Below, piece after piece: positions 4,427 to 38,175 of a stretch of DNA of 64,000 nucleotides. The notes below the pieces were generated by a model that saw only the letters and a list, made by a program, of their open reading frames with translations, did not search any database and was not told the DNA's origin. Source of the stretch: Gracilariopsis chorda. Lineage: Eukaryota; Rhodophyta; Florideophyceae; Gracilariales; Gracilariaceae. Where the stretch lies: the NCBI GenBank assembly GCA_003194525.1, contig NBIV01000205.1:62001-126000 (forward strand), given 5' to 3'. Position numbers and translations under genes: made by a program. Positions within the stretch are counted from its first letter, which is position 1. Every line of letters begins with the position of its first letter.

Positions 4427-4719
4427 TCACCATCATGAGGTTTTGTGTAATTGTATGGAGGACAGTACCAACAACTGTCGAAGAATGCCTGCAAGAAGAA
4501 CCCAAAAAGTGGCTGTGAATCTCGTAGGTGCGGTGGGAACGCCCTGAGAAATGCGTCTCTATGAAGAGTACCATGTTCATAATTGTAGAGAAACTTTTCA
4601 ATCCAAACCATGTAGATATCTTCGATGTCCGCTGGAGGTCTGTGCTCTAGGAGATACTGACGGCTACACCAAATAAATATGCCGATCGATTGATACTGGA
4701 ATGGTTTAGGCTTGAGGTG
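4423..4719 (-). pseudogene. ORF2 copy A, 3' segment: C-terminal 98 codons of PCIF1-like methyltransferase
   Basis: On the minus strand, 4719 down to the TAG at 4423-4425 is open. Its SIGIFIW, RQYL, PPAD and YMVWI blocks align with LGIFIW, REYL, PPND and YMSWI in ORF2 of copy B (36434-37042). The gene was cut by the chromovirus: the other part lies at 16200-17244. If one copy of the 5-bp duplication AGGTG is counted, the two parts stay in the same frame across the insertion. The tail after YMVWI is less conserved but shares AFP..LRD with copy B. Confidence 0.85.
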
Positions 4720-5499
4720 TGAAGTGCAACGCTCCTAGCGGTATCAGCACGTCGTGCGCTCATATCCCGCTCTGGCGATGCTCACCACTTTGCCGTGAAG
4801 TATGAGTGTTACACCGGTAATCTGTTTCTGTTGGAAGGGCCCCAATTTGGTTGACAAGTGTAGTGCACAGCATTGCTGGCTTGTGCCACACGTGTGTAGT
4901 GTTTTGCACCCCCGTAGGGACATTATTAGTTATTATTAGTTAATTACTACTGTACTGTCAGGGCGCGGACCACCACTACTTATGTGTGTGAGCTCCGGCT
5001 GCCCGGGTCAAAGTAAACGCAACAAGCGAGTGTCTGGCTCTAACTCAGGTTCCCTGGTGAGTGTCCACCTCCGTCTGGAGAGACGCCATCCTGTGAAGGC
5101 CTAGTTACCCACCTCGCGGAGCTCATCACATTCTTACCACCATTGTGTTTGTTTTTGTGCACGCTTTTACAGCGATTGTTATTCTTTGCCCCGTATACAG
5201 GTGTTGCCTCACTAGCAACTACCGGTGATTACCGTTGCTGTTTTCGCCACCGCCCCACTCGTGTGGACACCGTGCCGCTCTTGCGCGTCGCCCACCACTC
5301 GTGTGTCGCTGCATTTTCCGCTTTCCCACTCCGTGGTCTGTCTTTGTCTCTACACCTGTACGCCAGTCGTGACGGTGAGTCCCGGTCTTACACCCGGCTC
5401 CGTGTACTCACCACAGGTGGTTCTGTCGCTGCGCTACCCTGCTGAGGAGGACGTCGAACACCCTCGTGTGTCTGTCCCATCTTGGGGTATTGCACCACA
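4720..5499 (+). repeat. 5' LTR (780 bp)
   Basis: Starts TGAAGTGCAACG and ends TTGCACCACA. It matches 15420-16199 except at two positions. It contains an AT-rich tandem (TTATTAGT) at about 4923-4940. A 100-codon frame at 5143-5445 recurs in both LTRs and is not treated as a gene. Confidence 0.95.
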
Positions 5500-5502
5500 A
5501 AC

Positions 5503-5520
5503 TGGTCTCCTGACTTAGAA
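5503..5520 (+). other. Probable primer binding site
   Basis: TGGTCTCCTGAC begins three bases after the 5' LTR. A TGG start complements the CCA end of a tRNA, as expected for a primer site. I could not assign the tRNA. Confidence 0.5.
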
Positions 5521-5779
5521 GACCAGTGAAGTGTGTTTTGTGATCTCGGTTTACCGGATTAGCTACCTGGTTTCCGAATTATTCGTTGAAGTTGAATTTG
5601 TGTTGTGGCCAACCGTGTTGTTGAGGATCGCCGATTGCTAGGGTGTGTCTCCCACAAGTGGTTGCGTGGTACCTCTTAGGAGTGGATGTTCGCTCATTGG
5701 AGGTTTGCTTCTTTTTGTTGCTTGTTTGTGTGTTGTTTGGATTGTTTCCTGTTTTGTTTCAGTTTCAGTGTCTGCCACA

Positions 5780-7873: not shown

Positions 7874-10800
7874 GTGGGGGAGTCTCTTTTAGAGAGGCGC
7901 CTGAGTCGAGGTCATCGGCGCCAGAGGCGTCAAAGCCTCGCTCCCCAGTCAAGATCCTTTCAAGGCAGTTGTTGACCACCACAGACGTGGACTCGGCCCA
8001 CCTCGGTGAGTTACGTCGCCCGTGGATACGGTGTAAGAATCATCGGTCACCGGATAGAGTCATGGTTATGGCCAAGCGAAACTACAAAGTTTTCGCTGAC
8101 TTTGGCCTTTCCGCCCAGTATATGGTGCGTCATCTGTCTATTCTGGATACAGGTGCCGGCCCCAATTTCATTGTCGAATCTCTCTTACCGCCTGAAGTGC
8201 GTTCTCGTGTCAGACAAGGACCCGTCATGGACGTTGCTGATGCCAATAACAACCCGTTGAAGACGGCTGGTACGGTTTCTCTGATGATCAGGATTGGTAA
8301 CTGTTCGATGCAGCTCGAATTCATCGTCTGTAAGACGCTAGCGGCCCCCGTTATCTTGGGATGTGACTTCTGCGATCGTTTCGTAGAGTCAATTCGTCCG
8401 CGTGCGCGAGAAGTTGAACTAGAAGATGGTTCCATCATTCCGATAGTTCGTCGTTCATTACGGCGTGCCTCATCCAAGTTGGTTCCTCTTCCGGCCCCCT
8501 TGCAGAATTCGTCACCTCCAAAGGAGTCGCCCAAGCTACGTGTCGCACGGCCAATCTCCATACCGCCCGAATCACAGGCGTGGGTATCGGTTACTGCCGC
8601 TCCAAGAGGATTGCGTGTTGTTCAACCGCTCACCTCGCTGTACGAGAAGTATCAATTGGCCCTGGCTAACGGTGTCGTTCAGGTTTCAAATGAACACCCC
8701 TTTCAGGTCTTGATAGCCAACTTTGGCAAGAAGCCGCAGTATCTGGCGAAGAACCAAGTAGTTGGTACTGTACTTCCGCATCCAACGGCTTTAATCCCTA
8801 CAAAGGTGTGCGCAGCCGATGTACTCGGATTAGTTCAAGAACCAGATGATACGCCTCATGCTAAGGAGGGGGAGGGTTCCCACTCTTCTGTGGAGTCGCT
8901 CAGCACGAAAGATTCGGAAAAGAAGGCCGTTCCTACGAGTTACGATAAGTTGGACCCTGTGAAGGAGTTAGAAGATCTGTATCTCGGACATGTACCGGAT
9001 TCACACCGCGAGAAGTTGCGAAAAATGTTGCGAGAGTTCACCTCAATGTGAGATGGATCCCTCGGGGAGGTGTCGGCCACGGAACACCGGATTGACTTGT
9101 TACCGGACACCAGGCCGATTGCTCAACACCCCTATAGGGCAGGCCCCAAAGCAAGGGAGGAAGAACAGTTCCACGTGGATAAAATGCTCCACGAAGGCGT
9201 GATAGAACCGGCTCAATCACCGTGGGCATCCCCAGTGGTACTGGCTCCGAAACCCGATGGGACTTGGCGTTTTTGCATCGACTACCGTCGCCTTAATGCC
9301 GCCACCGTGAAAGACGTGCACCCCATACCGCGAATGGACGAGTATATTGACTCTCTCGGTGAGGCAACTGCCTTCTCCACATTGGATGCGAACTGGGGAT
9401 ACTGGCAAGTACCAGTAAGACCGGAAGACCGTGATAAGACCGCTTTCGTCTGTCATTCAGGTTTGTACCGCTTTAAGCGTATGCCGTTTGGGTTAACAAA
9501 CGCTCCCGCTACTTTCCAGCGTGCGTTAGATATCCTCTTGGCCCGCTTCAAATGGCGATCGTGCCTCGTCTACCTTGACGATATCATAGTCTTCTCCAAC
9601 AACTTGGATGATCATTTAGAACACGTTCGTGAAATCATGACCACGTTACGTGATGCTGGAGTAACCCTCAAGCTGAGGAAGTGCGAATTCTTTACCGAAT
9701 CGGTTAAGTACCTGGGCCACGTTATTCGCCCTGGGCGCTTGCTGATACAGGAAGCTCGGGTCAAATCTCTCAAAGAGGCCAAGCACCCGAGAACTCAAAC
9801 AGAACTCCGCTCCTTTCTAGGGTTATGTAACGTGTATAGACGGTTCATCCCAAGCTTCGCAAAGATTGCGGGACCCCTTAATGATCTTCTTCGAAAAGGA
9901 CAACCGCCAAAACTGGGCCCCCTTAACCCTGCACAGGTGGAAGCTTTCAACTCTCTGAAGGAGGCTGTCACCTCTGCACCGATATTATCGTTGCCTAAGG
10001 ACGGGTTACCTTATACCATGGATACGGATGCGAGTGATTACCAAATTGGTTGTGCGTTATTCCAAACGACTCCCGATGGGGAACGGAAACCAATCGGTTT
10101 TTGGTCCAGAACACTCAACGTCCACGAACGGAACTACTCAGTCCCTGAAAAGGAATGCCTCGCCATGGTATGGGCTCTGCAAACACTCAGACCATATCTG
10201 ATGTGCACACGCTTCACCGTTAATACGGACCACTCCGCTTTGCGTTGGTTAATGTCCGTCACGGAACCATCGGGCCGCTTGATGCGTTGGAGACTGCGCC
10301 TCGCTGAGTTCGATTATGAAGTCGCCTATAAAAAGGGTTCCCTTAATACACAGGCTGATGCTTTGTCTCGTTTGGGAACGGAAGCGGAAACCCTTTCCGT
10401 CGATGACGATGATATCCATTGTTTCCTTCTTGAAGAGAAGTTACGTTATGATCTGGTTTCAGATGATATTGCTGATGGTCTGCTCGTCGCTGACGGTGAC
10501 GAACCGGATACCGGATCCTTCGCACCGATCACTCCCGAAGAGATGATCCGCGAACAGTATGGAGACCCGTTTTGTACGAAGATACGCGCCCAACTCAATG
10601 GAGGTGCTAACATTCCTTTCGGAGTCGACTCACAAGGTTACTTGGTAAGGACTGTGTGTTCTTCGTCACAAATAGTGGTTCCCCATTCCCTCCAGTCGAG
10701 AGTATTACATCTCTCGCACTTTTCGAAGTTAGCTGCACACCCTGGTGGAAGGAGGCTATACACGACGTTACGTCGGCATTTCTACTGGCCCGCACTTGCG

Positions 10801-13193
10801 TTGGATTGCAACGCGATTGGTCGGTCTTGTACCCATTGTGCTCGTGAGCAAGTCAAGCTACGCCGCTATGCGAAGAAATTGACCCTGTTCCCGGCACGGG
10901 CTCCGCTAGAATTTGTCGCCATCGATATACTCGGTGAGTTCCTTCACACTGCACGTGGTAACAAGTTTCTACTCGTAATAACGGACAGGTTCTCGAAGCT
11001 CGTCCGGACTGTACCGTTGAAGAAGATTACCGCACGATCCATGGCAGAAGCATTTGTCCGTCACTGGGTTCTCGTCTACGGTCCACCGGTTAATCTCTTA
11101 TCCGATAACGGACCGCAGTTCGCCGCGCGTTTCTTCCAAGATGTTTGTAGAATACTTGACATCAGAAATCTGTTTACAACGACATACCATCCCCAAGCAA
11201 ATGGGCAGGTGGAACGGTTTAACCGAACGTTGTTGTCCGCTTTACGTGCGTATGCAGTTGAGCACCCCTTACATGGGATTTGTACACAGACACCGTGACG
11301 TACGCGTACAATACGCAGGTACACAGAGTAACTGGCTTATCACCCTTCGAGCTGGTGCTCTCACGTCCCCCACCGCCTGTGGCGATTGAGTCGCAGCCAA
11401 CGCAGGACAAGTACCCGTCAACGGTTGATCATTACATTCGATGGAAGAGTTGGCTCACACGGATGGTCCCGGTCGCGAAATCGTCAATGACGCGAGCGCA
11501 ACGAGCGTATCAACGAAATTTCGATGCCCGAGTCCGTCGGCCCCTTCCCTCACTGGAAGCAGGACAGTTCGTCTTCGTCAGGAAGGAATACTACAACCCT
11601 GAGAAGGAGAAACGCCACAAACTCTCGCCCATTGCGGATGGCCCCTACAAGGTCATTTCAGTGAGCCGAGACACAGTTGTACTGGAAGTTGGCGATTCTC
11701 ATGAACGGTTCAGCCGCGATCGCGTCGTACAAGCCCCTAACCCGCATTCGGAAGTTGTACTGGCTCCCGGAATCCCGGACGCTCGACTGATGCCCACTGC
11801 AGAAGCACGTTCCTCGCACCGCGCAATTAGCGTTGCGCGCCCATCGAGAGGTCTCTCGGACATACCGATTCTGTCGCAGCCATCTTCGGAATCTCCGGTA
11901 CACGTTCGCTCGCGCTTTACGCCGCGTGTCGAACCTCCGTCAGACGTTGTTTCAGCCCCCGTCGCCGCCCTGGCTAAGGAGGGGGAGGAGGCCAGTCAAT
12001 CCCGCTTTTCAGCGAAGTCTACACCGCCGTCGCGAGCTCCTGTAAACTCTCGTGAGGCACGGCAACCTGAAGTAGGGACACCGCACGCTACCACCGCACG
12101 CGTGGAACTACCTCAGCAGACTGGAAGGACCGGCCCCGCCGATGGAAAGCCTCGTGAGCACGCTACGCAGTCACCCCCGTTAAGGGAGCACACTGCCAAC
12201 CGCACTCGCGAGACGCTGCAAAGAAAACCGGACACAGACACTGTGCTGTCATCTCCCGTTGGAGGAATGAACACAGGAAGCCTGGCTCGGAACCCGGACG
12301 CTCCGTTGGCCCCCTACTCACCGGCTCCCGTCGAGAAAGTTGTAAGGACCCCCGCCGCTGCAGCGCAGACTAAGCAAGTCACGGCAGATCCCGGTGTATG
12401 GAACCCTGATGTACAGGACGCTTCGACACCCTCGCAAGTGGATGCGCAAGGTCCCACAAATGGGTTATCTGAAATTGAATCGTCTCTCATTAGAGGAAGT
12501 CTCTCTGGTACTGTACCAAGCAGCTCAGATCATCTGAATTCAGCTCACAGTATTGAAAGACTGGTTGCGTCAACCCCAGCAGGGATGGCCCACACCGCAT
12601 ATGCAGGAGAGCCTGATCGCCACGTGTTGCGAGATGTGCACCACACACCCATTCACGGTGACACAGCTCTGCAGTACAGGACGACGACAGCCAACCATTT
12701 GGATACGCCTCGCCAACCGGCACCCGCCGTGGCACATGAACCGCCTCCCCGTCACCAACCGTTGGAAATGGGACGAGGAAGCCTTCGCAGACTAGCGGTA
12801 CGATCTCCCGAATCCGATGGGGTAGCGTCAACCTCAACGAGGAATTCAGTCGACCCTCATCAGGAAATCACATGGTCAACGCCGCAAGCGAACGCCACGA
12901 ACCGTTGGACGGACTCATCACCGGCTTTGCCGTCGGAAACAGCCGTTGTACGGACTGCAACCGGAACCGCGAAGCGTGACGTTTACTCGAAGGAGTTCAT
13001 TATCGACCGTATCGTCGGGCACAGTTACAACCCAGAGGGATATATTCAGTACCAGGTGCGCTGGTATGGGTACCCGCCGTCCCATAACACGGACGAACCG
13101 GTAGAGAACTTGCCCCGATCGAAAATCGTGCAGTATCACCACCGTACCAGAACGGGAATACCAGGCACGATTGACCGAGCGCTCGTTGGATAA
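7861..13193 (+). pseudogene. Pol polyprotein: protease, RT, RNase H, integrase, chromodomain (two disruptions)
   Basis: The pol frame is open from at least 7861, overlapping the gag end in the -1 frame. Protease: LDTGA with Asp at 8146, and ILGCDF downstream. An in-frame TGA at 9049-9051 separates it from RT, which follows with LGEVSATEHRIDLL, FGLTNAPATFQ and YLDD at 9571-9582. RNase H: TDASDYQIGCALF. Integrase: HHCC zinc finger near 10720-10850, then Asp 10924, Asp 11104 and Glu 11212, the last pair with the usual 35-residue spacing. A frameshift just before 11300 moves the frame to the integrase tail. The C-terminus is a chromodomain (about 12985-13150; IIDRIVGHSY and YQVRWYGYPP), which targets insertion to modified chromatin in this family. 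A Pro/Ser-rich linker precedes it. Confidence 0.92.
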
Positions 13194-13486
13194 TCCACTG
13201 ACTTGGTCAGGTGAGCCGTGAGCCCGGTTTTCCGGTGTGAAGATGGATGCCTTCAGAATGCGAGAAGATGGAAACCTCATGGAAGAGAAGATGAAGCTGG
13301 CTCATGAAGAGAAGAAGAAGACCTTGGATAGGAAGAAGCAAGGAAGAAAAAGAAGAAAAAGACACAAGCCCCACGAGGGAAGTTAAGCGTTTATTCGTTA
13401 ACACGTAATTTCCCTCGCCTACCACTACCACGACCCCAACTATCAGGGATGGTGGACGCCAACCGTGGGAACATCACTTCGCTCCC
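13194..13486. other. Spacer between convergent pol and antisense ORF
   Basis: Purine-rich (GAAGA/GGAAG repeats at about 13260-13380). It is a likely site of both 3' ends; no gene seen. Confidence 0.5.
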
Positions 13487-15463
13487 TCAAGAGGATGGAC
13501 CACCACTCTGATGAGGATGGCCTGGCTGCGCCAGCAGCGCTAGCATGGCCGCCCGCATTTGCGCGATGTCACCGGAAGCTCCCGAGGTATCCATTCCTAG
13601 TTCGCCAAGGAATTGGGCAATGATGGCCGCACGGTCCTGACTGGTCACACTCGCCGATGGCGTGCCACTTCCAACCGGAGCGGTATGGAAGGGACCACCA
13701 CCGACTTGAGGAATGTTCCAAGACGGAACCTGACTCGGCCCAGCCGGAGGAGCCACGGATGGACCCGGAGTAGAGTACGCCGGCACCCTGAAGCCCTCAG
13801 CTGAGGGAAAGCCACCGCCACCGTTTGCGCCCACCCCAGTCGCGGGAGGATCATTGTCCATCATTGGATCGGCCTCCTCATAGGGTTGGAAGTATCCGTC
13901 ATTGACGATGTAGCCCGTCGGATGACCCGGTGGAACAACTCGCTCGCGATCGCGGAGTGCCAATGCCTCCGGCTCGGAGATGAAGCGACGCTCTACGGGA
14001 TCGTAGTAGACGTAATCACCCGCCAACGGAGTTCGGCGCCCCGGAGACCGGTCGGCTGGATTGGTACCTTGATGACGGCGACTCCATTGGATGGGCACAC
14101 TGTTCCAGTCAACCTGGTCCATCGCGTCCAACAGGGAGATAGCCTCATTATAGTTGCCGGCACCGCCGAGGACGAGGGAGAGATCCAATGAACGGATGCC
14201 ACTACGCACTCGCGGAGGGAGATACCACAGTCTGAACTGGTCGTAAACCTCGAAGACGAGATACGCCGCTTCGCGGGCGACCCACTCAGTGAGGACAACG
14301 GACCACCACCCGGAGAACGGATTGCTGCATAGTCGACTACCGATGTAGGTGATGCATGGCGGAAGCTCGATGTAGCAACCCCTGCAAGCCTCGTGGGCAG
14401 CCCACATCCTCGGTAGGGGAACGTAACGGCCTCGCATGTACTGCGGTCGGATGCGCTCAGCTTCAACGTTCTGATACGGTATCATGTACCCGAAACGGGA
14501 TCGGGAACGACGTTCAAAACGGATCATCTGGAGGAAGTTAGACCGCGGATTATGGCGAAGATAACGGAACTCAGCACGAAGTATCGGCCTTGCCCAACAC
14601 AGGTAGTTCTGGTGAACAGATGCCGATGGACCCCGCTCTGGGATGGACGGAGCCAACGCTGCTAAGCGGTCCCCATACCCCATTTCACCTTGGGTGGGGT
14701 AGAAGGCAATATCAAACTGATATTCTTCTGGGACCGGGAATTCCGATGGAGTCCGATACAACCGCTGATACGCGAGCTGAATCATCGCGATACGCGCTTG
14801 CGCCCCACTCTCACCACGACGGTGGACCAAGACGTGCGTCGGCACGGCGACCCGGTTACGCCAGTCGAAGCTGAGAGTCATCCATACGTGGAGATCGCCC
14901 GGAAGGAGTCCGCTACCATCAGCATACTGCTCGATGAGATCTTCATTTTGCACCAACGTTGGGTGGAACCAAGGCGCACCGCTGTAGCGAGAAGGCTGCT
15001 CGGCCGGATCAACGGATAACAGCTCGTCATACGACGGTAGTGCGCTCGCCGCAGGCGACGGAACCGACATACTTGGAGTGGCAGGTGTACCGCCCGAGGC
15101 GTTGCTTGGATGACCCGCAGAGGACAGAAGCGGTGCAGTCGGAAAACCGGAAAAGAAACCCGATGGCGGAAGATTGTTCCCGCCATGCGGATCGTTGTTG
15201 CTGGGATTCATCGCTGAAGGCGCGGAAGGTAAAGCAGGTCGTCGCGGGATAGGCGGAGAGTTGCTGACGTCGAGTTGTTCTCGGTGGATATCCACTTGAG
15301 TGAAGACAAAACCCGAGCCGGATACGGTACCATCACTTGACGCGGACATACTTACGCACAACGCGCTGTCGCGGCTCACGCTCACCGAATGTGGTTCTTG
15401 CTCCTTAAGGAGGGGGAGATGAAGTGCAACGCTCCTAGCGGTATCAGCACGTCGTGCGCTCAT
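13487..15463 (-). CDS. Antisense accessory ORF of the retrotransposon, unknown function (658 aa)
   Basis: A long open frame on the opposite strand between the end of pol and the 3' LTR. The first ATG (15463) lies 44 bp inside the LTR; a second ATG at 15349 is fully internal and is an equally good start. The N-terminal 150 residues are Ser/Pro/Gly-rich. The middle (about 170-440) looks globular and is rich in Trp, Tyr and Arg (for example YLCWARPILRAEFRYL). The tail is Gly/Pro-rich and ends in a short helix (MRAAMLALLAQ). I see no protease, envelope, zinc-knuckle or transmembrane signature. Other plant and algal Ty3 elements carry extra ORFs here, but I do not recognise this family. Being open over 658 codons in an element with broken pol suggests selection or youth. 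Confidence 0.7.
   Translation of the reverse strand: MSARRADTARSVALHLPLLKEQEPHSVSVSRDSALCVSMSASSDGTVSGSGFVFTQVDIHREQLDVSNSPPIPRRPALPSAPSAMNPSNNDPHGGNNLPPSGFFSGFPTAPLLSSAGHPSNASGGTPATPSMSVPSPAASALPSYDELLSVDPAEQPSRYSGAPWFHPTLVQNEDLIEQYADGSGLLPGDLHVWMTLSFDWRNRVAVPTHVLVHRRGESGAQARIAMIQLAYQRLYRTPSEFPVPEEYQFDIAFYPTQGEMGYGDRLAALAPSIPERGPSASVHQNYLCWARPILRAEFRYLRHNPRSNFLQMIRFERRSRSRFGYMIPYQNVEAERIRPQYMRGRYVPLPRMWAAHEACRGCYIELPPCITYIGSRLCSNPFSGWWSVVLTEWVAREAAYLVFEVYDQFRLWYLPPRVRSGIRSLDLSLVLGGAGNYNEAISLLDAMDQVDWNSVPIQWSRRHQGTNPADRSPGRRTPLAGDYVYYDPVERRFISEPEALALRDRERVVPPGHPTGYIVNDGYFQPYEEADPMMDNDPPATGVGANGGGGFPSAEGFRVPAYSTPGPSVAPPAGPSQVPSWNIPQVGGGPFHTAPVGSGTPSASVTSQDRAAIIAQFLGELGMDTSGASGDIAQMRAAMLALLAQPGHPHQSGGPSS
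15406..15419 (+). other. Polypurine tract
   Basis: AAGGAGGGGGAG (15407-15418) abuts the 3' LTR start, the expected place for plus-strand priming. The same 12-mer occurs inside pol at 8863-8874 and 11976-11987. Confidence 0.75.
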
Positions 15464-16199
15464 ATCCCGCTCTGGCGATGCTCACCACTTTGCCGTGAAG
15501 TATGAGTGTTACACCGGTAATCTGTTTCCGTTGGAAGGGCCCCAATTTGGTTGACAAGTGTAGTGCACAGCATTGCTGGCTTGTGCCACACGTGTGTAGT
15601 GTTTTGCACCCCCGTAGGGACATTATTAGTTATTATTAGTTAATTACTACTGTACTGTCAGGGCGCGGACCACCACTACTTATGTGTGTGAGCTCCGGCT
15701 GCCCGGGTCAAAGTAAACGCAACAAGCGAGTGTCTGGCTCTAACTCAGGTTCCCTGGTGAGTGTCCACCTCCGTCTGGAGAGACGCCATCCTGTGAAGGC
15801 CTAGTTACCCACCTCGCGGAGCTCATCACATTCTTACCACCATTGTGTTTGTTTTTGTGCACGCTTTTACAGCGATTGTTATTCTTTGCCCCGTATACAG
15901 GTGTTGCCTCACTAGCAACTACCGGTGATTACCGTTGCTGTTTTCGCCACCGCCCCACTCGTGTGGACACCGTGCCGCTCTTGCGCGTCGCCCACCACTC
16001 GTGTGTCGCTGCATTTTCCGCTTTCCCACTCCGTGGTCTGTCTTTGTCTCTACACCTGTACGCCAGTCGTGACGGTGAGTCCCGGTCTTACACCCGGCTC
16101 CGTGTACTCACCACAGGTGGTTCTTTCGCTGCGCTACCCTGCTGAGGAGGACGTCGAACACCCTCGTGTGTCTGTCCCATCTTGGGGTATTGCACCACA
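15420..16199 (+). repeat. 3' LTR (780 bp)
   Basis: Near-identical to 4720-5499, followed by the target duplication AGGTG (16200-16204). The start codon of the antisense ORF lies in its first 44 bp. Confidence 0.95.
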
Positions 16200-17244
16200 A
16201 GGTGGTCTCGACAGAGCAGTACCTGTTGGTTCATGAAAGGGAAAGAACCAGGCGGAGAGATAACTAGAATTTCACCCTCTGATGTCCATTTATTGACATG
16301 TGCGGGGACGTTGTACCAAGTTCTTAGAGGAAGCAAAACGACGCGACAGTAAGGCTCAGAGCGATGCACAACTTCCTCAAAGCGATGCAATACGGACGTT
16401 ATCAAGTTCTTATCAAATGGAGGGTTACCCGCAGCACTTTCAACTGTACATTCCTTATCCTCCCACGTTCCAAATGCACCAAAATCATAGTCTACTTCGT
16501 CCTTGCTGCAATAAAACCGCAGTATCCCACTCTCATTAAAACAATCAGCAAACAGCTCCGTGTTTACATCGCATGTAAACAGCCACAGGTTGTACAGACT
16601 CGTAACGGTTATCCAGATGGTAACGATATCGTTTCTTGCATGTTTTGGAATGATAGCATCCACCAATGCGCTCAAAAGCAAAGTACAAACATATCCAGGC
16701 CTCACACAGTGTACAATTCCGTTGAGAAGCAGGACGCCCTCTCTTTCAAAGATAGCGTATGAATCAGGGCGGCACTGCTTGGACCACTCGTAAAACCTCT
16801 TCCCCACTCGCTTAGACAAATTGCACGACAGCCAGTACGTTCGTTTCTGAGATTAATCACTCACAGGTATGATGAATCGGTAGTGCCTGTACTTACCCCT
16901 CTGTTTACGAATGGGTTGCCATACAATAGAAAGTGAAACGGAAATACGGAAAAGCGCATCCATGTGCCACAGGAGCACGGTTTTTGACGTTCTGGTTTCA
17001 ATATTTGCAGTGAATAGCCACAAAACGCGCGCTCCACCCAGTTGAATGGGTCAAAAAGGATGTTAGGCAGGAAGAGTCGAAACAATTTTGGAGCTTTTGA
17101 ACAGAATGGTAGATTGGGCGAAGTGTCTTTGTGCCGGCTATGGCGTTGTTGATGGGCCGGAAAAATGCAATACGTGTACAAAAGTCGCAGGAATAGATAG
17201 GAAAAAGAGGTATATAACTTTGTGAGAGCCATGGACTGACTCAT
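16200..17244 (-). pseudogene. ORF2 copy A, 5' segment: PCIF1-like adenine-N6 methyltransferase with a 50-nt intron
   Basis: Exon 1 runs from ATG 17244 to 16897 and exon 2 from 16846 into the insertion site. The intron 16896-16847 begins GTAAGTAC, has GATTAAT near its end and closes CTCAG; splicing is phase 0 and restores one open frame. Counted with 4719-4423 and a single AGGTG, the exons total 1287 nt, 429 codons with stop, so the gene was open until the chromovirus landed. Domain: ELFADCFNES, YCSKDE, FGAFGTW and AGNPPF (NPPF at 16426-16415) follow the order of the PCIF1 cap-adenosine methyltransferase core. NPPF is the catalytic motif of N6-adenine methylases. No WW domain is visible. The same order of motifs appears in copy B. 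Substrate (RNA cap, mRNA or DNA) cannot be told from sequence. Confidence 0.8.
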
Positions 17245-18027
17245 TCGAAGTCGAACGAACCGGCAAAGCAGTGGCTGAGAGCGGAAAAATGAGAACTCTT
17301 TTCTCAGTTAGCGGTTTTCTTCCTCAAGCGGAAAGTGGCGAGACGAGATCAGCTGACATCCCGGTAAACGGAAAGTGCCTTAGCTCCTCCACACATAAAT
17401 AACAGTTATTTTTTCGAATGCTCTTTTTTTGCACACTGTGCATGGTTTTGCACGTAATTAAAAGAAAACAGGCGGTTGGTGCCCGACTGTGCACTTTGCT
17501 CTTCACCGCGACGCGAGCGCTGTGTCATCACGTAGTGTAGATACACGTAGCGACACACAATAAAGTGCCTGCCCGCCGGCGAGAGCGCCAGAGGGAAGGG
17601 AGCATCGATTCTCTCTTGTCTCACGCTGTGAGAGGAAGACTGTGCTCGTCTTTTGCTTTACTTTGTGAGCTTGCGCTGCTCTGTGTTATATGTTGTGTTC
17701 TACTGTAATGCTGATTGACAAGCGCAATTCAGCGCAGCGGCTCGCGCGCCGCTGTAAAGGGCGCGCCGCTGTAAAAGGCGCGCCGCGCGCGCACACGTAA
17801 GGCTGTAAGATGCGCAGCAGTCGCTGAGAGAAGGCGCACGCGCCGCGCTGCCGCTTCAAGCCCTCTCTCTTCCGCGCGCCATTCGCGCAGCCCGCCCCCT
17901 CTCCTGCGCGCAGCCGCCGCCCGATTCGGGCCGCCTATAAAGCTGCCACCTTCGCTCGCCGACACCGCTCCCCCCCGCTTCTCCGACCAGCCCCCCCCGC
18001 TTCTGCCTCTGCCGCAATCCATTTCAA
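17245..18027. other. Intergenic region right of element copy A
   Basis: Contains the unknown right end of the two-gene element. At 17745-17790 there are two tandem GCGCGCCGCTGTAAA units, then GC-rich DNA up to the next gene. No inverted terminal repeat could be recognised. No gene seen. Confidence 0.6.
17936..17941 (+). promoter_or_regulatory. TATA-box-like element
   Basis: TATAAA in a GC-rich stretch, 87 bp before the ATG at 18028. Two C-runs (about 17970 and 17990) lie between it and the start codon. Confidence 0.5.
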
Positions 18028-29049: not shown

Positions 29050-30126
29050 TTCACTCCCGTATTCGCCCCTTTTGTTGCATCATTTCAACCGCCCTTGTGG
29101 CTTTACGCTAATTGACGGAGTGCAACTTTGCTTAACGCTCCCTGCGCTTCGCTGTGCGAACAAACGCACCGTCTCTTTTGACGCGCGACGCGCACACTCT
29201 TGGAGCACATGCGCAACTGATTGCTACGCCGCTTTTTCTCTCCCCATCTCCGTAGCGGAGCTCACAAACATATTGGATAGACACGTCACCACGTCACCAC
29301 GTCACCACACCCAAAATTGGCAAACTGTAGAAGAACCCGCCCATCATGCATCATGCCTGTGCACCGTCATCATGCAAAGCAACACTGCAAAACACGCCAT
29401 GCTGCAAATGCATTTATTGTACAGCGTTATAAAACCTCAAAGCTTCTCATGTAGCCTACGGCACTCTTCGTTCATACTCTGCTCACCTAGGCGACAAGCC
29501 CTCCGAACCCCTCCACCTCGTCATGGGGCCTCATCTTAAAATGCATTCCCACCTGCCTGCGCGGAGGGAGGACGTTCTGCGCAGCGACGCTTCTGGGCGT
29601 GAGGCGATGTTGTAGCAGTGATTCTACCGTCTGAGAAACGAATACGCAAAATCCAGTGCTATCACCATCGCAGACGGGCCCCAGCGCCCAGCCGAGAATG
29701 CCCCATTTGGAGTCGCGTACAGGGGTGCGAGCGGTGTAGCGAAATGGGAGCTTCGGTTTGCACAAGCACAGCATTTCGTTCTTCCGTGATTTGCACCGCA
29801 CATCCAAAAAATAGCCATCTGTGCAGCGGTCACACGTAGTGTTCGAAACCCGAAACACACTACAGTCCGTGATATTTCAGAAAATTGTGAAATGAGCCTT
29901 ATCATAAGGCTCTACCTACCGACATTCCCAAATCTGCAAAACTGCACTCGGTGACCTCCACGGAGGGGTTTCGGCCACAGTCTCCAGAACCCCGCAACTT
30001 TATTCCTTCGCAGCCGCCTCTACTTTCCAGCGTCGCCCCTTCCGCATAGCTCAAAAGGACAGACGGAGCTCAAATTCCCATTCGCCGAAGTTTCGCTGTC
30101 TGAAACAGCCAGAGCCATTCTCGGGG
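29050..30126. other. Left flank of element copy B
   Basis: Holds three tandem ACGTCACC units (about 29283-29307) and a perfect inverted repeat, GAGCCTTA-TCA-TAAGGCTC (29894-29912). On the minus strand, 29858-29487 is open for 123 codons with protein-like composition (PVRDSKWGILGWALGPVC) but has no ATG. An overlapping frame starts at ATG 29905. Either might be a third gene of the element or an exon of an unrelated gene. No firm call. Confidence 0.5.
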
Positions 30127-33100
30127 ATGGCGTCAAAAATGAAAGAGGTCGTCAGGGATTCGTGGAACCAGCCAACTGAAGGTCATTGCGTTGCTTGTGG
30201 TGAAAATGACAAACGGAGGCCAACGAAAGCTTCATTCTTAAGTCGTACACAGCTCCTGAAACGATCTCAAGTCGATACAGGAACCCTTCCAAACCCTTTC
30301 GTCCGGAAGGATCCTGGCTTTTTCCTGCTTTGTACATCATGCCGCTCTCCTAAGAACGGCTGGAATGTGATTTGCGATGTAAGAAGGTACGGCAGCAAGT
30401 CACGTTCTGCTCTTCAAGCATGGAAAGTTCGAGCCTCTGCACGTGAAGCTAAGCAACGTACAGACTGTTACATATGTATAAAACTTGGTTGTCATTTTGA
30501 TTCAAGCATCCGCACAAAAGCAAACTTTAAGTTGTTCTCCGTTCTGCTATATAGCGCTTGCGTACAAGAGCTCTTTTGCTCCGAGCTTTCTAGAAGGTCT
30601 GGACTTTGTGTTGAGGATGGGCGATTTTTGCTGCATCAGATTGGAGAAGTTCGGTTCTGTTCTCTGCACCACAATAAAACGAGACACGCAAATGATATTG
30701 CTGCTACTGAGGAACCAACTCTGCGGGGTGCCTTATCTGGGTACTGTATATTTAAAGGTCAGGGTTGTTCCGGGTTAAGTGCTGTGCTGAGGCCGCTTCC
30801 TAATCTCAAGATGGAAACGCTGGAGGACACAGAGGTTTTTTGTGAGTATGATGATGCTGTTGACATCTATTCAGGTGGCAGTCTCAAGTTTGAGGATGTT
30901 GCGGGGAAGCATGCTTGCGGCAATTGTCGCTACATCGTTACAAGAGGAGCGCAAGCTATTCAGCCTTCCTTCGATACACTGACTCTCACGGACGCAACTG
31001 ATAGATGTTTAGTGGACTGCATTTTGTTTGCACTAGACAAGGCCGCTTGTAATACTGTGTTTATGAGGGGTTTTGACGGTATCACGCACGCAGCCAACGA
31101 TTTGAGGTCTGCAGCAATCGCTCCTTTTTCGGAAGCCCCTGCGTCTCGGTTTCTTCCCATAAAGGCTGTGTTTACTACTCGGAAAGCCTTGGCCGCTCTT
31201 AGCACAAACGGGTTTGACGTGACAAACCGAACGGTTGAGTCGAGAATTGGTTCGGTTCTGTCGGCAAAGGATGTGCATCTTTATTCGCTTTCTAGAAAGT
31301 TTCGATGTTATGCACAAGTCGGGGCACTCTGCCCAATCGTTGGGGTTGTTATGACTCTAACAAAAGGTGAAAGTGTGACAATCACACTAAAAGAGAAGCG
31401 CAAAATGCTGGCAGAGACTGGAAACAGATTTATGCGAAGCAAAGAAAAGTACTATCGTGGTGATTGGTCACTCTCTGATGAGATAGCAGCAGTTCCCCCT
31501 CGTCTTTGGGCTTCATTCATTCTCGAGATGGCTTCTGAAAAGCAACTGCTCTCCTGGAAAGTTGCAGCTGCAGCAATAGGCAAGAAAGTTGTGGATATGT
31601 TTCCAGTCCTTAATGACTTCACCAACATTCCGAGAGAGGAATTTGACAACTTCGCACAGCAACGCTTTGTTCATAAAAGCGCAGACGAAACAGGGCTCAG
31701 AAGGGTTGACTTTTTACTTTGCATTAGAGCTTTGAAAGTTATCGAACAGATGACATACTCTCAGTCGCGGTTACGTATCGGTCCTCTCACTATGACACTT
31801 TCAATTGCCGGTATTGCCGAGTCTAGTCCCTCATGGACTAGTGTTCTTCACTCTCTTGGCCTAGCGACGTCTTACGACGCTATGGAAAGCTTTAAGAAAA
31901 GTCTAATAGCTAAGAGGGAGCAGTCAACAAGAGGGGCATTCGAAGGTGTCAATACTACTGACCGATTGGTTTCAATTCAGCTGGACAACTTTGACATCTT
32001 ACCCTTTCACAGCATGAAAGCGTCGGGTAAGGCCTTACCCATGGTAAGCGGTACTGCAACTCAAGGTATTGTGCAATCTAGAAAGCGTCCCAGACTTCAT
32101 TCTGCGGTAGGAATTAACCGCAGTACCGAAGAACCTGGGGCCTTGGTTGAGGCAGACACTTCATGGAGGAGTCCCTCAACAGTCCTCGTGGATCGTGCCA
32201 CTTTCAGTTCAAGTTTTAACTCTGTCGCGGTCCAGAATATCCTTGAAGACTTTTATGATATGGTGTTTGGAGTTGTGCTCAGCCGCCGGGATGATTTGCT
32301 GGGATCGTCGGCTTCTTCACAGTTCCAGCGAAGGACTGCAACATTGCCGTACAAGAATCAGGGGGTTAACTTCCGCACTCTTCTTTTGTCATGCTTCAGT
32401 CCGCATGGTGGCTCCGATCGTTCTGCTCCCTACCTGTTCGACCAAGATGTCTTGTTCGTGGATATATGTCGAATGAGTGCTGCAGACATTCTCACCATAC
32501 ATCAGAAGTTATCCCTCATTAAGTACTTACTGCAACTCGGGGAGGACGGAAGTCCTAAATATGTCGTTGTTAGCGGGGATCAGCCCACGTACCGCATGCT
32601 TGTCAAGATCTGGAGACAATCTTTTCTTGAATCCAAAAGGGACACGGCCGAGAACTCACCAACAAATGAAGTTAAGGTTCACGAGTGGTTAATCCCGTTC
32701 CCGGGTTTCTTCCACGTCGAAAAGCAGAGCCTTTATCCATTGTGCAAAGAAATGCAACACGGGCTTGGGCTGACCGAGCTTTCCGGATGCTGTGGGCTCT
32801 CTAAGAGCCAAGTAGACAACATTCTGAAGCACAGTCATGCCAGAAATAACCGCGCGGTCGTATTCAGCATTTGCGCAGCTCTCGTGATACACACAGTTGA
32901 CCTGATTCAGGCAGAACGCCCTGAGTTGAAGGACTCTGTCATGGAGATTATGAACCGAGATCACTCTTCTACCAAGTCTCAGTCAACACTCTTCAAGTGC
33001 ACTACAGATCTAGTGACCGGTTCAATGATTGAAGCAGGTAGAAAACTTCGAAAAGGTGTTTTCGACCTGTTTGCAAACGATCCGAACGGAACGCACATTG

Positions 33101-36100
33101 TGCACACAGTGCTCTTTACGTGCCTCCTACCGACTGTGGGTTTTCACGTCCTTTCACGCACGGGTCACACAGATGTTCTATACAGCTTCTGGCTCCGATT
33201 GAACAACGTTCTGCACACGTCCGGTCATTTGAAGTACCAAGAGTTGTACCTCTTCTACTCATTTTTTCGATCCATCATGCCACGGATTGTATTCGAGGAC
33301 CTCTACAACAACAAGCCCGGTGCCCTCGTAGCTCGTGTTCCTTCTTTTACGGCAGGTTCAAGGTCCGCCTATGACGAACGTGGATGGACGTACGTACACT
33401 TGGATGAGGCGTTGGAGATGTTGATCATCAGACTAGTGAAAGGTCTCAATCAAGTCACTCTGCCGTACCTGGAGAGCGCCGGAGCCTGGCTTTTAGACGT
33501 GGCTAGTGCTAGGCTCTTAATAAGGAACGTAACGGCTGCTGCCCGCTTGTACAGGCCATCGCGCAGTGGGGATGACACTGGGGAAGGAATCGGGCCCCTT
33601 CTTCATTACGACAAGAGCTCTATTCAAAGCAAAAGTGTGAAGGCCATGGTGGAACTTATGCGGGCAAAAGGGTTCCTCGGACATGACCACAGGAGTGGAG
33701 ATAAACTTTGCAACGTTCTCGGTGACCATACGGCAACCTTGAATGACGCAAAGGCTCAGGAGCTAATCATGAAGTGTGACATTTACGGGAAGAAGACAGC
33801 TGAGCTGCACGCAAGCGCCCTCTTTCCTGATGTTTTCGGGAAGTTAACAAAAGAAGATTACGAGACGGAATTTAGTGGAAAGCGGTTCAGAGGCGTGTGG
33901 ACGAAGGCTCGACAGATACCGACGGCAGGTATCGTGATGGAGTCAGAAAAGAAGCACACAGTTCTAAAGTCATCTAAAGTTACGAAAGACCCAAAGAAGG
34001 CATTATCTGATCGTCGGTATGTTCTCAGCAAAGTAATGACTACTCTAACGCTAGCTGAACATGCTGCGTTGAGTTCCGGAGATCACGAAGGTGCAGAACA
34101 TGCTAGAAAGCAATGGAATGTGTTATATTCCGCCCGTCATATGGCCTCCCCCTTTGCAGATGCCTACAGGTCTTTCGAGCAAGGCGCAGCTGGCATGCGC
34201 TATGCGCAAAAGAGTCATATTCTGAATGCTTTAAACTTAGAAGGGTTTCAGGAAGGCGAAGATGGCGACGATGTAGGCATTCCGGTTCGGGAAACCAAAG
34301 CAGTTTCGTTTTATTACGACTATCAGTTTCCTTCATATGCATCAGTCATGGTTGATGTGATGAACCACATATGGACTCGTGGAACCGACGAAAGACGAGG
34401 AAACTCCATCTTCCATGTCACAGTAATGAAGCTTAAGCATTTCCTTAGACCGTGGTTCTCCGGCTCTAGAGGCAAACAATTACGGCAACTGCACCTACAT
34501 GTTGATGACCCCTCCATTGTAATCCCCCAGAAGCATGGGGAGCAAGCAAGACGGGATGCGACGCGTAGCATGGACGAGAACACGGCAAGAAACGGAAGTG
34601 ATGAACTGAACAGCATAGGGTTCTTGCTCCCAATCACTGTTCCCTGGGGAACAATTACGAGCTCAAGACGTAGCCGAGATGCAGTAAGCTCAGTGCACTT
34701 ATTCTGCGGGGCAGTTGCTGCTATGGAACTGGCGGAGGAGAGCAGCATTGATGTGTCTGTCTTTTTGTATGGAGGATGCTTCTGCTTTAAAAGCAGCTGC
34801 GTGGGTAAAGGCTTCGAAGACCTCCTACCCGAATTGGCACTGCGCACCGACATGGGCAGCTTCCCTCGGGACGGAGAGGTGTTTATCGGTCTCAAGGAAG
34901 ATCTCTTATCAATTGGATGCAGCAACGGAGAAGGTGCACCAGGGCAAGCAGTTAGCTCAGATTCATCACAGGCAACAACTGCTAACAACGGACCCACAGT
35001 ATTACCGTCTGGAGTCAGTCATCCCGATATGGCTGGATACGATCCCCGAAATGAGCTTGGTGAACGTAGACATCAAACAGAAGAGGATGATTTGCTTCGA
35101 GTTCCAAGGACAGCTGTATTGATGGTATCGAATGGCGGTGGACTACAAATATCAGGTGTTTGTATTAAGCATGGTGAGGCTGAGACGAGATTCGTAGCTG
35201 CGTTCAAGCATTTTGTATCACCACTGCTCTCGGAGGAGAGTGAGAAGGATGTATTCAAGTATAATGATGGGCACCACTCTCCTTTGCCTAGTCATCTAAG
35301 GTGTGCAAGTATCGTCTTGTCTAAAGACACAGACGTGACAATGATACTTTGCCTTGCAGAGCGCATGCATGGAAGAGGTGTCCTACACGTGCTTGGCGAA
35401 CACGTCATAGAGATCGATACGCTGGTGCGTAATCTTTCTCTAAATGGGAGCAACCAAAGTACGCTTGCCTGTGTTTATACGCTCGCTGGGTTCGACTTCA
35501 CACCCGGTTCGTATGGGGTTCGCCATAGCCATTTTTTAAGCGCAGCAGTAAGACAGAGAGTAATGTTGGGACACTTGGAAAGTAACTCAGATCCTACAGC
35601 CTTCGAACTGGCAACTGTATTGGCTTATCTGGAGAAGAAAGGCTATAGAAAATTGCTTACGTTGGCAGAGAAAGATGACGCAATGCAGAAGTGGAACACC
35701 GAGTCGTGCGATGCCGCAGAGATTCGAAGGAGAACGAGGACAATATTTGCAAGCCCTCATGTAGTGGGCTCTGAGGAGTGGGTTTTGGATGCACGGAGAC
35801 ATATATATGACGGGGCGAGGTCGGTCGCCGAACTAATCGCCCCAAAGCAGCACATTTATCTCCAAGCATCCCGTTCCAAGTTCGTTGTGTTCACGTATTG
35901 GTCGCAAGCGCATTGGGATGACCTTTCTCCTGACGTTTTGAAAGGATGTGATGAGAGTAACGGTTTCGATGTTTCGGGGAGTGTTCTGTTAGAACGGGAG
36001 GACGATGTGAAGATTCTGTCCAAACAAATGAATGAACTTGTCGCAAGATGCAAGTGCAAAGGAAATTGTTCGAACAGAGTTTGCTCTTGTATTAAAAGAG

Positions 36101-36336
36101 ACAGAAAGTGTATCAGGTGCGAATGTGACGCAGGCACTTGCCGTAATAGAGCTACCACATCCGGTATGATATACAATGCTAACGCAGAAGACGCCGATGG
36201 CATGGAAGTTGAAGAAGATCAAGAGGACGGCTCCGATGATGAAGTGGTGACATCATTGCAAGTGACGGAGTTAAATTGTGACCTAGAGTGCAACTTAGCT
36301 AACGATGATGAAGAGACAGATGCATGCTCTCCCTGA
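30127..36336 (+). CDS. ORF1 copy B: giant protein with transposase-like core, FEN1/XPG-like nuclease and CXC module (2069 aa)
   Basis: Single uninterrupted frame from ATG 30127. Residues 21/24 and 69/72 are paired Cys (HCVACGE, LLCTSCR), a likely zinc site. Around 619-640, LDNFDILPF and GTATQGIV; at 816-822 SGDQPTY (Asp818); at 857-863 PFPGFFH; then LTELSGCCGLS. This order resembles large DUF6589-type, transposon-derived proteins as I remember them, where D-N and G-D-Q blocks suggest an RNase H-like core. C-terminal: HGEAETR (Glu1684, Glu1686), SKDTDV (Asp1734, Asp1736) and LAGFDFTPGSYG (Asp1790). These match the E-x-E, D-x-D and G-C-D-Y metal-binding blocks of FEN1/XPG flap nucleases. A nine-Cys CXC module (1975-2005) follows, a DNA-binding fold in tesmin/TSO1 proteins. 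Acidic tail. Function inferred: nuclease/integration protein of a mobile element. Confidence 0.85.
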   Translation: MASKMKEVVRDSWNQPTEGHCVACGENDKRRPTKASFLSRTQLLKRSQVDTGTLPNPFVRKDPGFFLLCTSCRSPKNGWNVICDVRRYGSKSRSALQAWKVRASAREAKQRTDCYICIKLGCHFDSSIRTKANFKLFSVLLYSACVQELFCSELSRRSGLCVEDGRFLLHQIGEVRFCSLHHNKTRHANDIAATEEPTLRGALSGYCIFKGQGCSGLSAVLRPLPNLKMETLEDTEVFCEYDDAVDIYSGGSLKFEDVAGKHACGNCRYIVTRGAQAIQPSFDTLTLTDATDRCLVDCILFALDKAACNTVFMRGFDGITHAANDLRSAAIAPFSEAPASRFLPIKAVFTTRKALAALSTNGFDVTNRTVESRIGSVLSAKDVHLYSLSRKFRCYAQVGALCPIVGVVMTLTKGESVTITLKEKRKMLAETGNRFMRSKEKYYRGDWSLSDEIAAVPPRLWASFILEMASEKQLLSWKVAAAAIGKKVVDMFPVLNDFTNIPREEFDNFAQQRFVHKSADETGLRRVDFLLCIRALKVIEQMTYSQSRLRIGPLTMTLSIAGIAESSPSWTSVLHSLGLATSYDAMESFKKSLIAKREQSTRGAFEGVNTTDRLVSIQLDNFDILPFHSMKASGKALPMVSGTATQGIVQSRKRPRLHSAVGINRSTEEPGALVEADTSWRSPSTVLVDRATFSSSFNSVAVQNILEDFYDMVFGVVLSRRDDLLGSSASSQFQRRTATLPYKNQGVNFRTLLLSCFSPHGGSDRSAPYLFDQDVLFVDICRMSAADILTIHQKLSLIKYLLQLGEDGSPKYVVVSGDQPTYRMLVKIWRQSFLESKRDTAENSPTNEVKVHEWLIPFPGFFHVEKQSLYPLCKEMQHGLGLTELSGCCGLSKSQVDNILKHSHARNNRAVVFSICAALVIHTVDLIQAERPELKDSVMEIMNRDHSSTKSQSTLFKCTTDLVTGSMIEAGRKLRKGVFDLFANDPNGTHIVHTVLFTCLLPTVGFHVLSRTGHTDVLYSFWLRLNNVLHTSGHLKYQELYLFYSFFRSIMPRIVFEDLYNNKPGALVARVPSFTAGSRSAYDERGWTYVHLDEALEMLIIRLVKGLNQVTLPYLESAGAWLLDVASARLLIRNVTAAARLYRPSRSGDDTGEGIGPLLHYDKSSIQSKSVKAMVELMRAKGFLGHDHRSGDKLCNVLGDHTATLNDAKAQELIMKCDIYGKKTAELHASALFPDVFGKLTKEDYETEFSGKRFRGVWTKARQIPTAGIVMESEKKHTVLKSSKVTKDPKKALSDRRYVLSKVMTTLTLAEHAALSSGDHEGAEHARKQWNVLYSARHMASPFADAYRSFEQGAAGMRYAQKSHILNALNLEGFQEGEDGDDVGIPVRETKAVSFYYDYQFPSYASVMVDVMNHIWTRGTDERRGNSIFHVTVMKLKHFLRPWFSGSRGKQLRQLHLHVDDPSIVIPQKHGEQARRDATRSMDENTARNGSDELNSIGFLLPITVPWGTITSSRRSRDAVSSVHLFCGAVAAMELAEESSIDVSVFLYGGCFCFKSSCVGKGFEDLLPELALRTDMGSFPRDGEVFIGLKEDLLSIGCSNGEGAPGQAVSSDSSQATTANNGPTVLPSGVSHPDMAGYDPRNELGERRHQTEEDDLLRVPRTAVLMVSNGGGLQISGVCIKHGEAETRFVAAFKHFVSPLLSEESEKDVFKYNDGHHSPLPSHLRCASIVLSKDTDVTMILCLAERMHGRGVLHVLGEHVIEIDTLVRNLSLNGSNQSTLACVYTLAGFDFTPGSYGVRHSHFLSAAVRQRVMLGHLESNSDPTAFELATVLAYLEKKGYRKLLTLAEKDDAMQKWNTESCDAAEIRRRTRTIFASPHVVGSEEWVLDARRHIYDGARSVAELIAPKQHIYLQASRSKFVVFTYWSQAHWDDLSPDVLKGCDESNGFDVSGSVLLEREDDVKILSKQMNELVARCKCKGNCSNRVCSCIKRDRKCIRCECDAGTCRNRATTSGMIYNANAEDADGMEVEEDQEDGSDDEVVTSLQVTELNCDLECNLANDDEETDACSP

Positions 36337-36433
36337 CTATTCAAGCCTGAGTACGCACATTTACTGAAGGTCGAAATACAAATGTACCTCACAGCAAGTC
36401 CTTGCTGCCCGTTTATTGAGACACATCTTGCAG

Positions 36434-37956
36434 TTACGGGACGTCAAAGAAAGACAATTTCCCACATCCGTCTCTTAGTCCTTTAGGAAATGCCTTTTCA
36501 AACGAAGGAAGTAGAAGTACAGCTCGTGATGCGCCATGACAAGCCCGGGCTATCCAGCTCATGTATAGAAGTTCCACATCGTTTGGAGGGGGATACTTTT
36601 CTAGGTATTCCCGGTTCCTCCAAATGAAAATGCCCAAGTCCTGATAACCGTGCTTTTGAGGATGCGAGTGGAACGCAAAGTATCCCTGCTGGTGCTTAAA
36701 AGAGAGACAGCCAGCTGGTATCTTGACCAGCATTATTGCTTTAGATGAAAGCCTGTGTGTTCTTTCCAATATGCCGTGCGTTTTTCCGAGGGGAAGTAGA
36801 ACGCAGCGACAGTACGGTTTAGAACCCCTAGCTCCCTTATCGAACTCATCCAGCATGCGGTGCAGAAACTGCGTTTCGAAAGGGGGATTTCCTCCGGCCC
36901 CTTCTATTGTGTCCTCCACGTCTTCCCAAATTCCGATGGACCCAAATAAATCATCACCTTCGTCCCGGCTGCAGTAGTTAGGAAGAACACCACTTTCATT
37001 CAGCAAATCTGCAAATAGTTCTACTGTGATACATGAGGTCAAGGACCATAACGCGTAGAGATCCGGGTTACAGTTCTAGAAAGTGAGTTGAAGCGATCCT
37101 CAAACTTTCGTTGAACTACGGTGCAGAGGGACTGCAAGAAATTAGTATCACTGTAGCCTGGCAAAAGCTCTTGGTAGCTTCCTTTTAAATCCCTTGGTGT
37201 ACTTGACTGCTTGATTGTCAACACAGCAGAACAATCAGTACGCTTGGCATTATAGACCTGTGAGGAAAACCTCCAGTACAGCCTTTCAGCTAGCTCTCTC
37301 CGCACAACTGCTTTTCTATTTCTGATAAACCCTTCTTCACATAATAAAGGCACACAAAAGCAATAGCATAGGCAAGCAGCATTTGCTAGGCTTTCATTAC
37401 CGATGCAGAGAACAGAAATGTCATGCCCTGGAACTTTCAAGGGGCCTAAAAGAGACCGAAAAGCACTATCAGACTCCAAGTACTGCAAACATTCCTTTGG
37501 GTCAGTTGGAGGCTTGTGACGGCCCCACCGCATACGCAAACCGTAGGAGTAATTACCGAAGGTCATTGTCGACGAAATAGACCTTTCTTCAAAGGCCAGA
37601 GCCACTTTCGGGAGAATGAGGAAACCGCACGGCAATGCAGCTTCTAATTGAGGCCTTGGTTGGCCGTGTTCTCGACGAGAACACGAAAGATTGCTGAGAA
37701 AAGAATATCCAACGATGCAGCAGTCTGAGCCGCTTGAAGCGCGCTCTTTTGTGGCGGTGGACGCTGCCGTAATCGTGAGTACGGGACTTCGCTTGTTGGT
37801 GGACAAAGAGTTCTTTTGGTGAAGGTGATGCTGTGGTGATGTGGCAACGGTCAGAAGGCGGTTCCCATTGGGCCCTGGAAGAGCATTTTGATATCCCTTT
37901 GCTTGGCGAGCAATCGCACGTTTTCTTAATATTTCCAAAATTGCTTCCAATCTCAT
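36434..37956 (-). pseudogene. ORF2 copy B: PCIF1-like adenine-N6 methyltransferase, one frameshift
   Basis: From ATG 37956 the frame is open to TGA 37039-37041. The homologous frame continues from about 37075 to the stop at 36434. Alignment with copy A (TVTSLYNLW against TVTR and DLYALW) shows a 2-nt gain or 1-nt loss near 37060, with coding sequence on both sides, so this is a frameshift, not an intron. Motifs: ELFADLLNES, YCSRDEGDD, FGSIGIW, GGNPPF (NPPF 36889-36878), HQQGYFAFHS and LGIFIW. NPPF is the catalytic motif of N6-adenine methylases, and the surrounding order fits PCIF1. The N-terminal part (about 200 residues) is Ser/Cys-rich and poorly conserved with copy A. An assembly error could also explain the frame break. 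Confidence 0.78.
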
Positions 37957-38175
37957 GGACTGACTACACACCAGAGTCGTCTGGTGACCAGACGTTACAC
38001 ATCAGCTCGCGACCGCCAAACAACTTCACGCACCCAAATACTCAAAACAAAACACAAGCAGTTTCCTCGTTCTACAAAGTTACATATGAATCCACGCACT
38101 ACAAAATCTCATATAGAGCAACATATGCTATTATCAGGCACTCATCACATGCCCTAACAAAAATCTCGCCTGCAG

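Follow-up and report, generated by a model that had tools for sequence, protein, structure and literature searches.

The 64,000-nucleotide stretch of Gracilariopsis chorda DNA considered here (the window; positions 62001–126000 of contig NBIV01000205.1, or C205, in assembly GCA_003194525.1) carries two copies of a DNA transposon that encodes a very large putative transposase (open reading frame 1, ORF1) and, convergent with it, a PCIF1-like adenine methyltransferase (ORF2). A two-gene mobile element of this composition had been proposed from a sequence-only reading of the window, and the genome bears it out. The element ends in inverted repeats, three copies lie in unrelated flanks, 4-bp target duplications surround 12 of 13 elements, and ORF2 accompanies ORF1 at 31 of 38 places. 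The pairing is real and old. The explanation we favor, with moderate confidence, is a two-gene cut-and-paste transposon of the AcademX type whose ORF2 product is a selected accessory N6-adenine methylase, most likely marking the DNA of the element. The element had also been called undescribed; no pairing of an Academ-type transposon with a PCIF1-type methylase appears among the listed titles and abstract beginnings of literature matches on Academ, PCIF1, DUF6589, transposon adenine methylation and red algae, and the description holds within that scope.

Element ends and target-site duplications

The better preserved window copy, of subfamily A, is a complete DNA transposon of 8.1 kb (29863–37962, + strand). 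Both genes do fall within the bounds originally given for it, 30127–37956, but these are gene ends, and the element itself ends at 29863 and 37962. Its left terminal inverted repeat, CAGTCCGTGATATT (29863–29876, + strand), agrees at 12 of 14 bases with the right repeat, CAGTCCATGAGATT (37949–37962, − strand), the right end of the element reading as the reverse complement of CAGTCCATGAGATT. A target-site duplication (TSD) of sequence ACTA, to which no strand applies, lies directly outside each repeat (29859–29862 and 37963–37966). Loci C30 and C413 hold a unit 99.4% identical to this one in unrelated flanks, and the 8.1 kb common to all three copies is 99.4–99.5% identical. Over the 30 kb compared there is no similarity beyond this unit, the boundaries fall at the identical base, and the full elements in the window, C413 and C30 are flanked by ACTA, TTTG and TGTA, respectively. 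Because its copies are near identical, subfamily A appears to have moved recently.

The exact sequence CAGTCCRTGADATT is found 12 times in the genome, forming six inverted pairs (places matching the terminal pattern were the best ~100 of 124, with exact matches ranked first). Three of these pairs bound the full elements, one bounds a 1859-bp element with an internal deletion (C184), and two bound elements of 1435 bp each (C13 and C116), whose ends were read. Candidate ends on both sides are available for 13 elements. Twelve of these carry CAGTC... at their termini and are flanked by a perfect 4-bp target duplication (ACTA, TTTG, TGTA, ATAC, ATAT, CAAT, GGAC, AACC, AATT, CTTA, CTTG and TGCA); the thirteenth, C24, has no target duplication. 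The ends of subfamily B read CAGTCAGTGA... and CAGTCGGTGA... in the six elements examined (C228, C252, the short C46, C36 and C227, and the first pair in the window). A second CAGTCCATGG motif is located ~250 bp inside the ORF2-side end of subfamily B (window 17238–17489; L038 873–1124). As this inner motif resembles the true terminus of subfamily A, the ends of subfamily B may have shifted once.

The ORF1/ORF2 pair is thus a DNA transposon and not a segmental duplication. From the anatomy of the element, movement would consist of end binding by the transposase, excision and insertion into a 4-bp staggered target.

The PCIF1-type methyltransferase and its possible substrate

ORF2 of the window copy occupies 36434–37956 (− strand) and is split into two frames, the break lying in their overlap at 37042–37075. 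It is a single frame in both near-identical copies, with 507 intact codons in C30, whose product is identical to the G. chorda protein BWQ96_03192. The ATG at 37956 sits inside the terminal repeat, as does the start of the database model of the C30 gene, and related proteins begin at a methionine equivalent to position 37566, ~130 residues inward. The true start is therefore probably near 37566 rather than 37956.

The earlier identification of ORF2 as a PCIF1-like adenine methyltransferase is supported by several similarities. At E ≤ 1, 15 of the 18 ORF2 members match the PCIF1 Pfam model, PF12237, the lowest value being 1.1e-8, and ORF2 of the older window copy passes the curated cut-off (35.7 vs 31.1 bits). 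In a search of 177,635 PDB sequences nothing matches up to E 1 except PCIF1 itself, the cap-specific N6-adenosine methyltransferase (6irv, E 0.27); the alignment spans the catalytic stretch YCS...D..FGS...NPPF, while the N-terminal part of PCIF1 is not aligned with support. The NPPF motif (36878–36889, − strand) is kept in 13 of the 18 aligned relatives, and is altered in L004, L048, L053, P0006 and P0008, as well as in the C413 copy, where it reads NPHF. None of the 18 members matches a WW domain at E ≤ 1, and for this reason ORF2 is not classified as PCIF1 proper, that is, as an orthologue. Across the genome the PCIF1 model matches 12 places, two of them above the cut-off. Since all 12 are ORF2 genes of the element, a host PCIF1 is not visible to a six-frame genome search.

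What ORF2 would modify is a matter of graded likelihood. It is predicted to be an N6-adenine methylase that selection maintains as an accessory to the element, and it may mark adenines in the DNA of its own element, either at the ends or in the body, such that transposition or expression is favored or timed. Accessory proteins of DNA transposons usually target DNA or chromatin. This, together with the lack of a detected WW domain, makes DNA our first choice of substrate, although we hold it tentatively and at somewhat less than even probability. RNA is a close second due to the known activity of the PCIF1 family, and action on neither is rather unlikely. A bolder version is doubtful. In it, an enzyme of the PCIF1 type, familiar so far from mRNA caps, would have become indispensable to an Academ-like transposase and would methylate the DNA of the element in a host whose genome shows no cytosine DNA methylase, as a eukaryotic parallel to the control of bacterial transposition by Dam.

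Action on RNA is the strongest competitor, with perhaps a one-in-three claim. ORF2 would then N6-methylate a cap-adjacent or internal adenosine and raise the stability or translation of the element mRNA in a genome where host PCIF1 goes undetected. The core and NPPF motif of ORF2 are of PCIF1 type, and all of the genomic matches to the PCIF1 model are element copies. In the portion of PMC8868631 available, the NPPF motif and the formation of N6,2'-O-dimethyladenosine (m6Am) on mRNA are given as features of PCIF1, a family confined to eukaryotes, so that its known function is on RNA. However, no WW domain is found in the 18 members searched and just the catalytic stretch is aligned with support. 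Furthermore, an enzyme that modified every cap in trans would be expected to bring the element no private gain.

Countering silencing by 5-methylcytosine was also considered as a role for ORF2 and is disfavored. The cytosine DNA methylase model PF00145 has no match in the genome, the control being positive in 10 of 14 genomes, and a counter to such silencing is therefore a poor explanation for the gene. The MT-A70 model likewise finds no match in the genome, but its control was also silent.

The putative transposase

ORF1 of the window copy (30127–36336, + strand) is one intact frame of 2069 codons, in agreement with the length of about 2070 residues first estimated. Its best database match is the G. 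chorda protein BWQ96_03191 (99% identical). Of the 31 pieces of the family core, nine match DUF6589, which we take to be the core of Academ transposases, at E ≤ 1, with 2.3e-5 as the best value. This similarity is weak: the window ORF1 scores 14.8 bits, under the cut-off of 27, and the domain is precomputed on two of 38 homologues. The stretch 31984–33417 (+ strand) holds the acidic positions of a putative DDE core, namely D620 (in QxDNxD), D818 (in GDQ) and E1094/E1097 (in DEaLE). They are ordered as in a DDE transposase and are conserved in 17 of 17, 29 of 30, and 28 and 29 of 31 rows, respectively. As these are just four of 11 acidic positions conserved in at least 90% of rows, their role as a catalytic triad is putative.

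Further downstream (35173–35499, + strand) are three motifs resembling those of the XPG/FEN nucleases: GEAE (residues 1683–1686), SKDTD (1732–1736) and AG[C]DF (1787–1791), the last with F in place of C in the window copy. The order GEAE – SKDTD – GCDF is that of XPG/FEN nucleases, and XPG is presumably also the type of the AcademX nuclease. In rows that mix intact and decayed copies, both glutamates of GEAE are retained in 10 of 12, both aspartates of SKDTD in 12 of 16, GC in 13 of 16 and the aspartate of GCD in 11 of 16. GCDF is intact in C30 and C413, and the window copy reads GFDF. The XPG model PF00867 does not match the nuclease-like region, and alignment of this region with host XPG-family pieces by hhalign is weak. 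The protein ends in a cysteine-rich tail of the CXC (Tesmin/TSO1-like) type by sequence (36049–36147, + strand); a database protein 99% identical to ORF1 (P0014) is named Tesmin/TSO1-like CXC domain-containing. In the mechanism that we propose, the DDE core would cleave the CAGTC ends and join them into a 4-bp staggered target, the XPG/FEN-like domain may trim flaps, and the CXC domain may bind DNA.

Membership in a separate superfamily, with a transposase that has no described relative, is less probable than an Academ affiliation, at roughly one chance in four. The weak similarity to DUF6589, the very large size of the protein and the lack of a fold match, the two fold predictions being uninformative, favor such a placement. 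It is opposed by the combination of 4-bp duplications with a nuclease-like domain, as stated for AcademX in the accessible text of PMC10045372, and by the order of the GEAE, SKDTD and GCDF motifs, which is retained in most copies. The element most likely belongs to an AcademX-type lineage, to which it is likened by description.

Pairing, co-divergence and selection

Merged protein searches of the genome (91.3 Mb in 1081 contigs) identified at least 38 ORF1 and at least 42 ORF2 places, these hit counts being lower bounds. In one of the ORF2 searches 39 of 85 rows were dropped because they matched just query residues 190–254 and were mostly long terminal repeat (LTR) sequence; the other searches contributed 51, 36 and 61 rows. 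ORF1 does lie beside ORF2 elsewhere in the genome. At 31 of the 38 ORF1 places an ORF2 is found within 13 kb, and in all 31 it is tail-to-tail with ORF1 and 3' of it, with gaps of 72–2859 bp. Seven ORF1 places are without ORF2, among them C13, which is at most 1.2 kb from a contig end. For their part, eleven of the ORF2 places lack a scored ORF1; they include the other half of the split window copy and four short elements (C184, C46, C36 and C227) that retain a piece of N-terminal ORF1. Two further contigs (24,419 and 14,798 bp) each encode both proteins, their co-location being judged from matching record size and source.

The distance matrices of the two proteins are strongly correlated (r = 0.86; 15 elements, 99 pairs; 0 of 5000 permutations). 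For this comparison 17 elements were considered, C14 and C112 were omitted for having few aligned residues, C30 stands for the window copy, and two of the 15 are the pairs on the 24,419- and 14,798-bp contigs. Between subfamilies, the proportion of synonymous differences (pS) is 0.75–0.94 for ORF2 and 0.80–0.84 for ORF1, which is saturated, and the proportion of replacement differences (pN) is of similar degree in both genes (0.27–0.48 for ORF2, 0.27–0.46 for ORF1). With synonymous sites saturated and replacement sites not, both genes were under purifying selection as the lineages diverged. Within subfamilies, the ratio of replacement to synonymous rates (dN/dS) is 0.35–1.93 for ORF2, 0.58–0.73 for ORF1 of subfamily B and 0.96–1.72 for ORF1 of subfamily A, values that we read as ordinary decay after insertion. 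In three comparisons within subfamily B (C205 copy 1, C252 and C228), replacement change in ORF2 is 1.4–3 times, and synonymous change 1.2–2.2 times, that in ORF1; either relaxation or an arms race could underlie this difference. An intact two-gene copy exists, as C30 keeps both frames open and both motifs present, whereas the window copy is damaged.

That ORF2 is a captured passenger making no contribution to transposition is improbable. Its absence from seven of 38 ORF1 loci, the many broken copies and the dN/dS near 1 within subfamilies are what a passenger would show. However, transposon copies usually decay neutrally within their family, and ORF1 does so too. The gene has been kept in one orientation at 31 of 38 loci, has co-diverged with ORF1 from ~90% to ~30% protein identity across subfamilies whose synonymous sites are saturated, and preserves NPPF in most of its relatives.

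The older element in the window

The sequence-only reading placed a first ORF1/ORF2 pair at 1–17244. The pair is present, but its element extends from contig position 58238, which lies beyond the window, to window position 17489 (right part 1–17489, + strand; TSD TGCA), and an LTR retrotransposon interrupts it. This is a member of subfamily B. A C-terminal ORF1 frame remains at 2960–4426 (+ strand), and the N-terminal part of ORF2 at 16200–16852 (− strand), separated by the retrotransposon from the other part of the gene near 4426–4734. The two window pairs have the same order and orientation, as had been noted, and the view that they are old members of one lineage stands. The proteins are ~38–40% identical over aligned parts, and the two elements have no BLAST match to each other at the DNA level.

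The DNA between the two elements has no BLAST match to that right of the second, and none of the compared flanks share a match. An origin of the two pairs by segmental duplication or from pieces of an integrated virus, which a two-gene repeat within one 64-kb window might suggest, has almost no probability left, since the flank comparison refutes duplication, the similarity of near-identical copies ends at the inverted repeats, target duplications are present at each site, no ORF1 relative occurs among 50,697 phage records, and a one-pattern ORF2-profile scan of viral contigs gave five pattern matches of which none was confirmed.

The interrupting element is of the Ty3/gypsy type (4720–16209, + strand, outer ends approximate). 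Its LTRs (4720–5509 and 15420–16209) are 99.5% identical, and reverse transcriptase, integrase and a chromodomain are present. An antisense ORF of 658 amino acids (13487–15463, − strand) lies within it and has no Pfam match. It scores at 67 places in the genome, with identity down to ~50%, and 19 of these are without an internal stop; by its sequence it is a predicted conserved antisense gene of the LTR element. In addition, a stretch without ORF1 similarity at 1006–1590 breaks ORF1 of the older element and is probably another insertion.

Comparison with known systems

If our explanation is correct, the constant association and co-evolution of an adenine methylase with a transposase would represent a new strategy, and either the PCIF1 family would extend beyond mRNA caps or the transposon would be one that modifies RNA. 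The element is directly testable because an intact copy and near-identical insertions exist.

In the part of PMC10045372 available, AcademX elements are described as coding for a nuclease and producing duplications of 3 or 4 bp, and AcademH elements as having a helicase and duplications of 9–10 bp. The element resembles AcademX in its 4-bp duplications (12 of 13 elements) and XPG-like motifs, a likeness of description rather than of compared sequences, and differs from it in the convergent PCIF1-type gene, of which that part of the paper makes no mention. AcademH was rejected on the basis of the 4-bp duplications, as opposed to 9–10 bp, and because ORF1 matches no helicase in Pfam at E ≤ 0.1. 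ORF2 shares with PCIF1 (6irv) the catalytic stretch and a match to the Pfam PCIF1_WW model. Unlike PCIF1, it is transposon-encoded and present in many copies, with no detected WW domain and no supported alignment to the N-terminal part of PCIF1.

Transposons with enzymes that act on cytosine marks are reported, in the excerpts available, from fungi (PMC12730594) and from dinoflagellates and charophytes (PMC5890265). The fungal TET/JBP transposons (KDZ and others) are likewise DNA transposons with an accessory gene for a base-modifying enzyme; however, as the accessible section of PMC12730594 has it, those enzymes oxidize 5-methylcytosine, whereas adenine N6-methylation is predicted here, and the target duplications are 7 bp in Kyakuja and 8 bp in Zisupton, compared with 4 bp in this element. 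The retrotransposons of dinoflagellates and charophytes also carry a captured methyltransferase, but they are class I elements and the enzyme is a C5-cytosine methyltransferase, according to the same partial text of PMC5890265.

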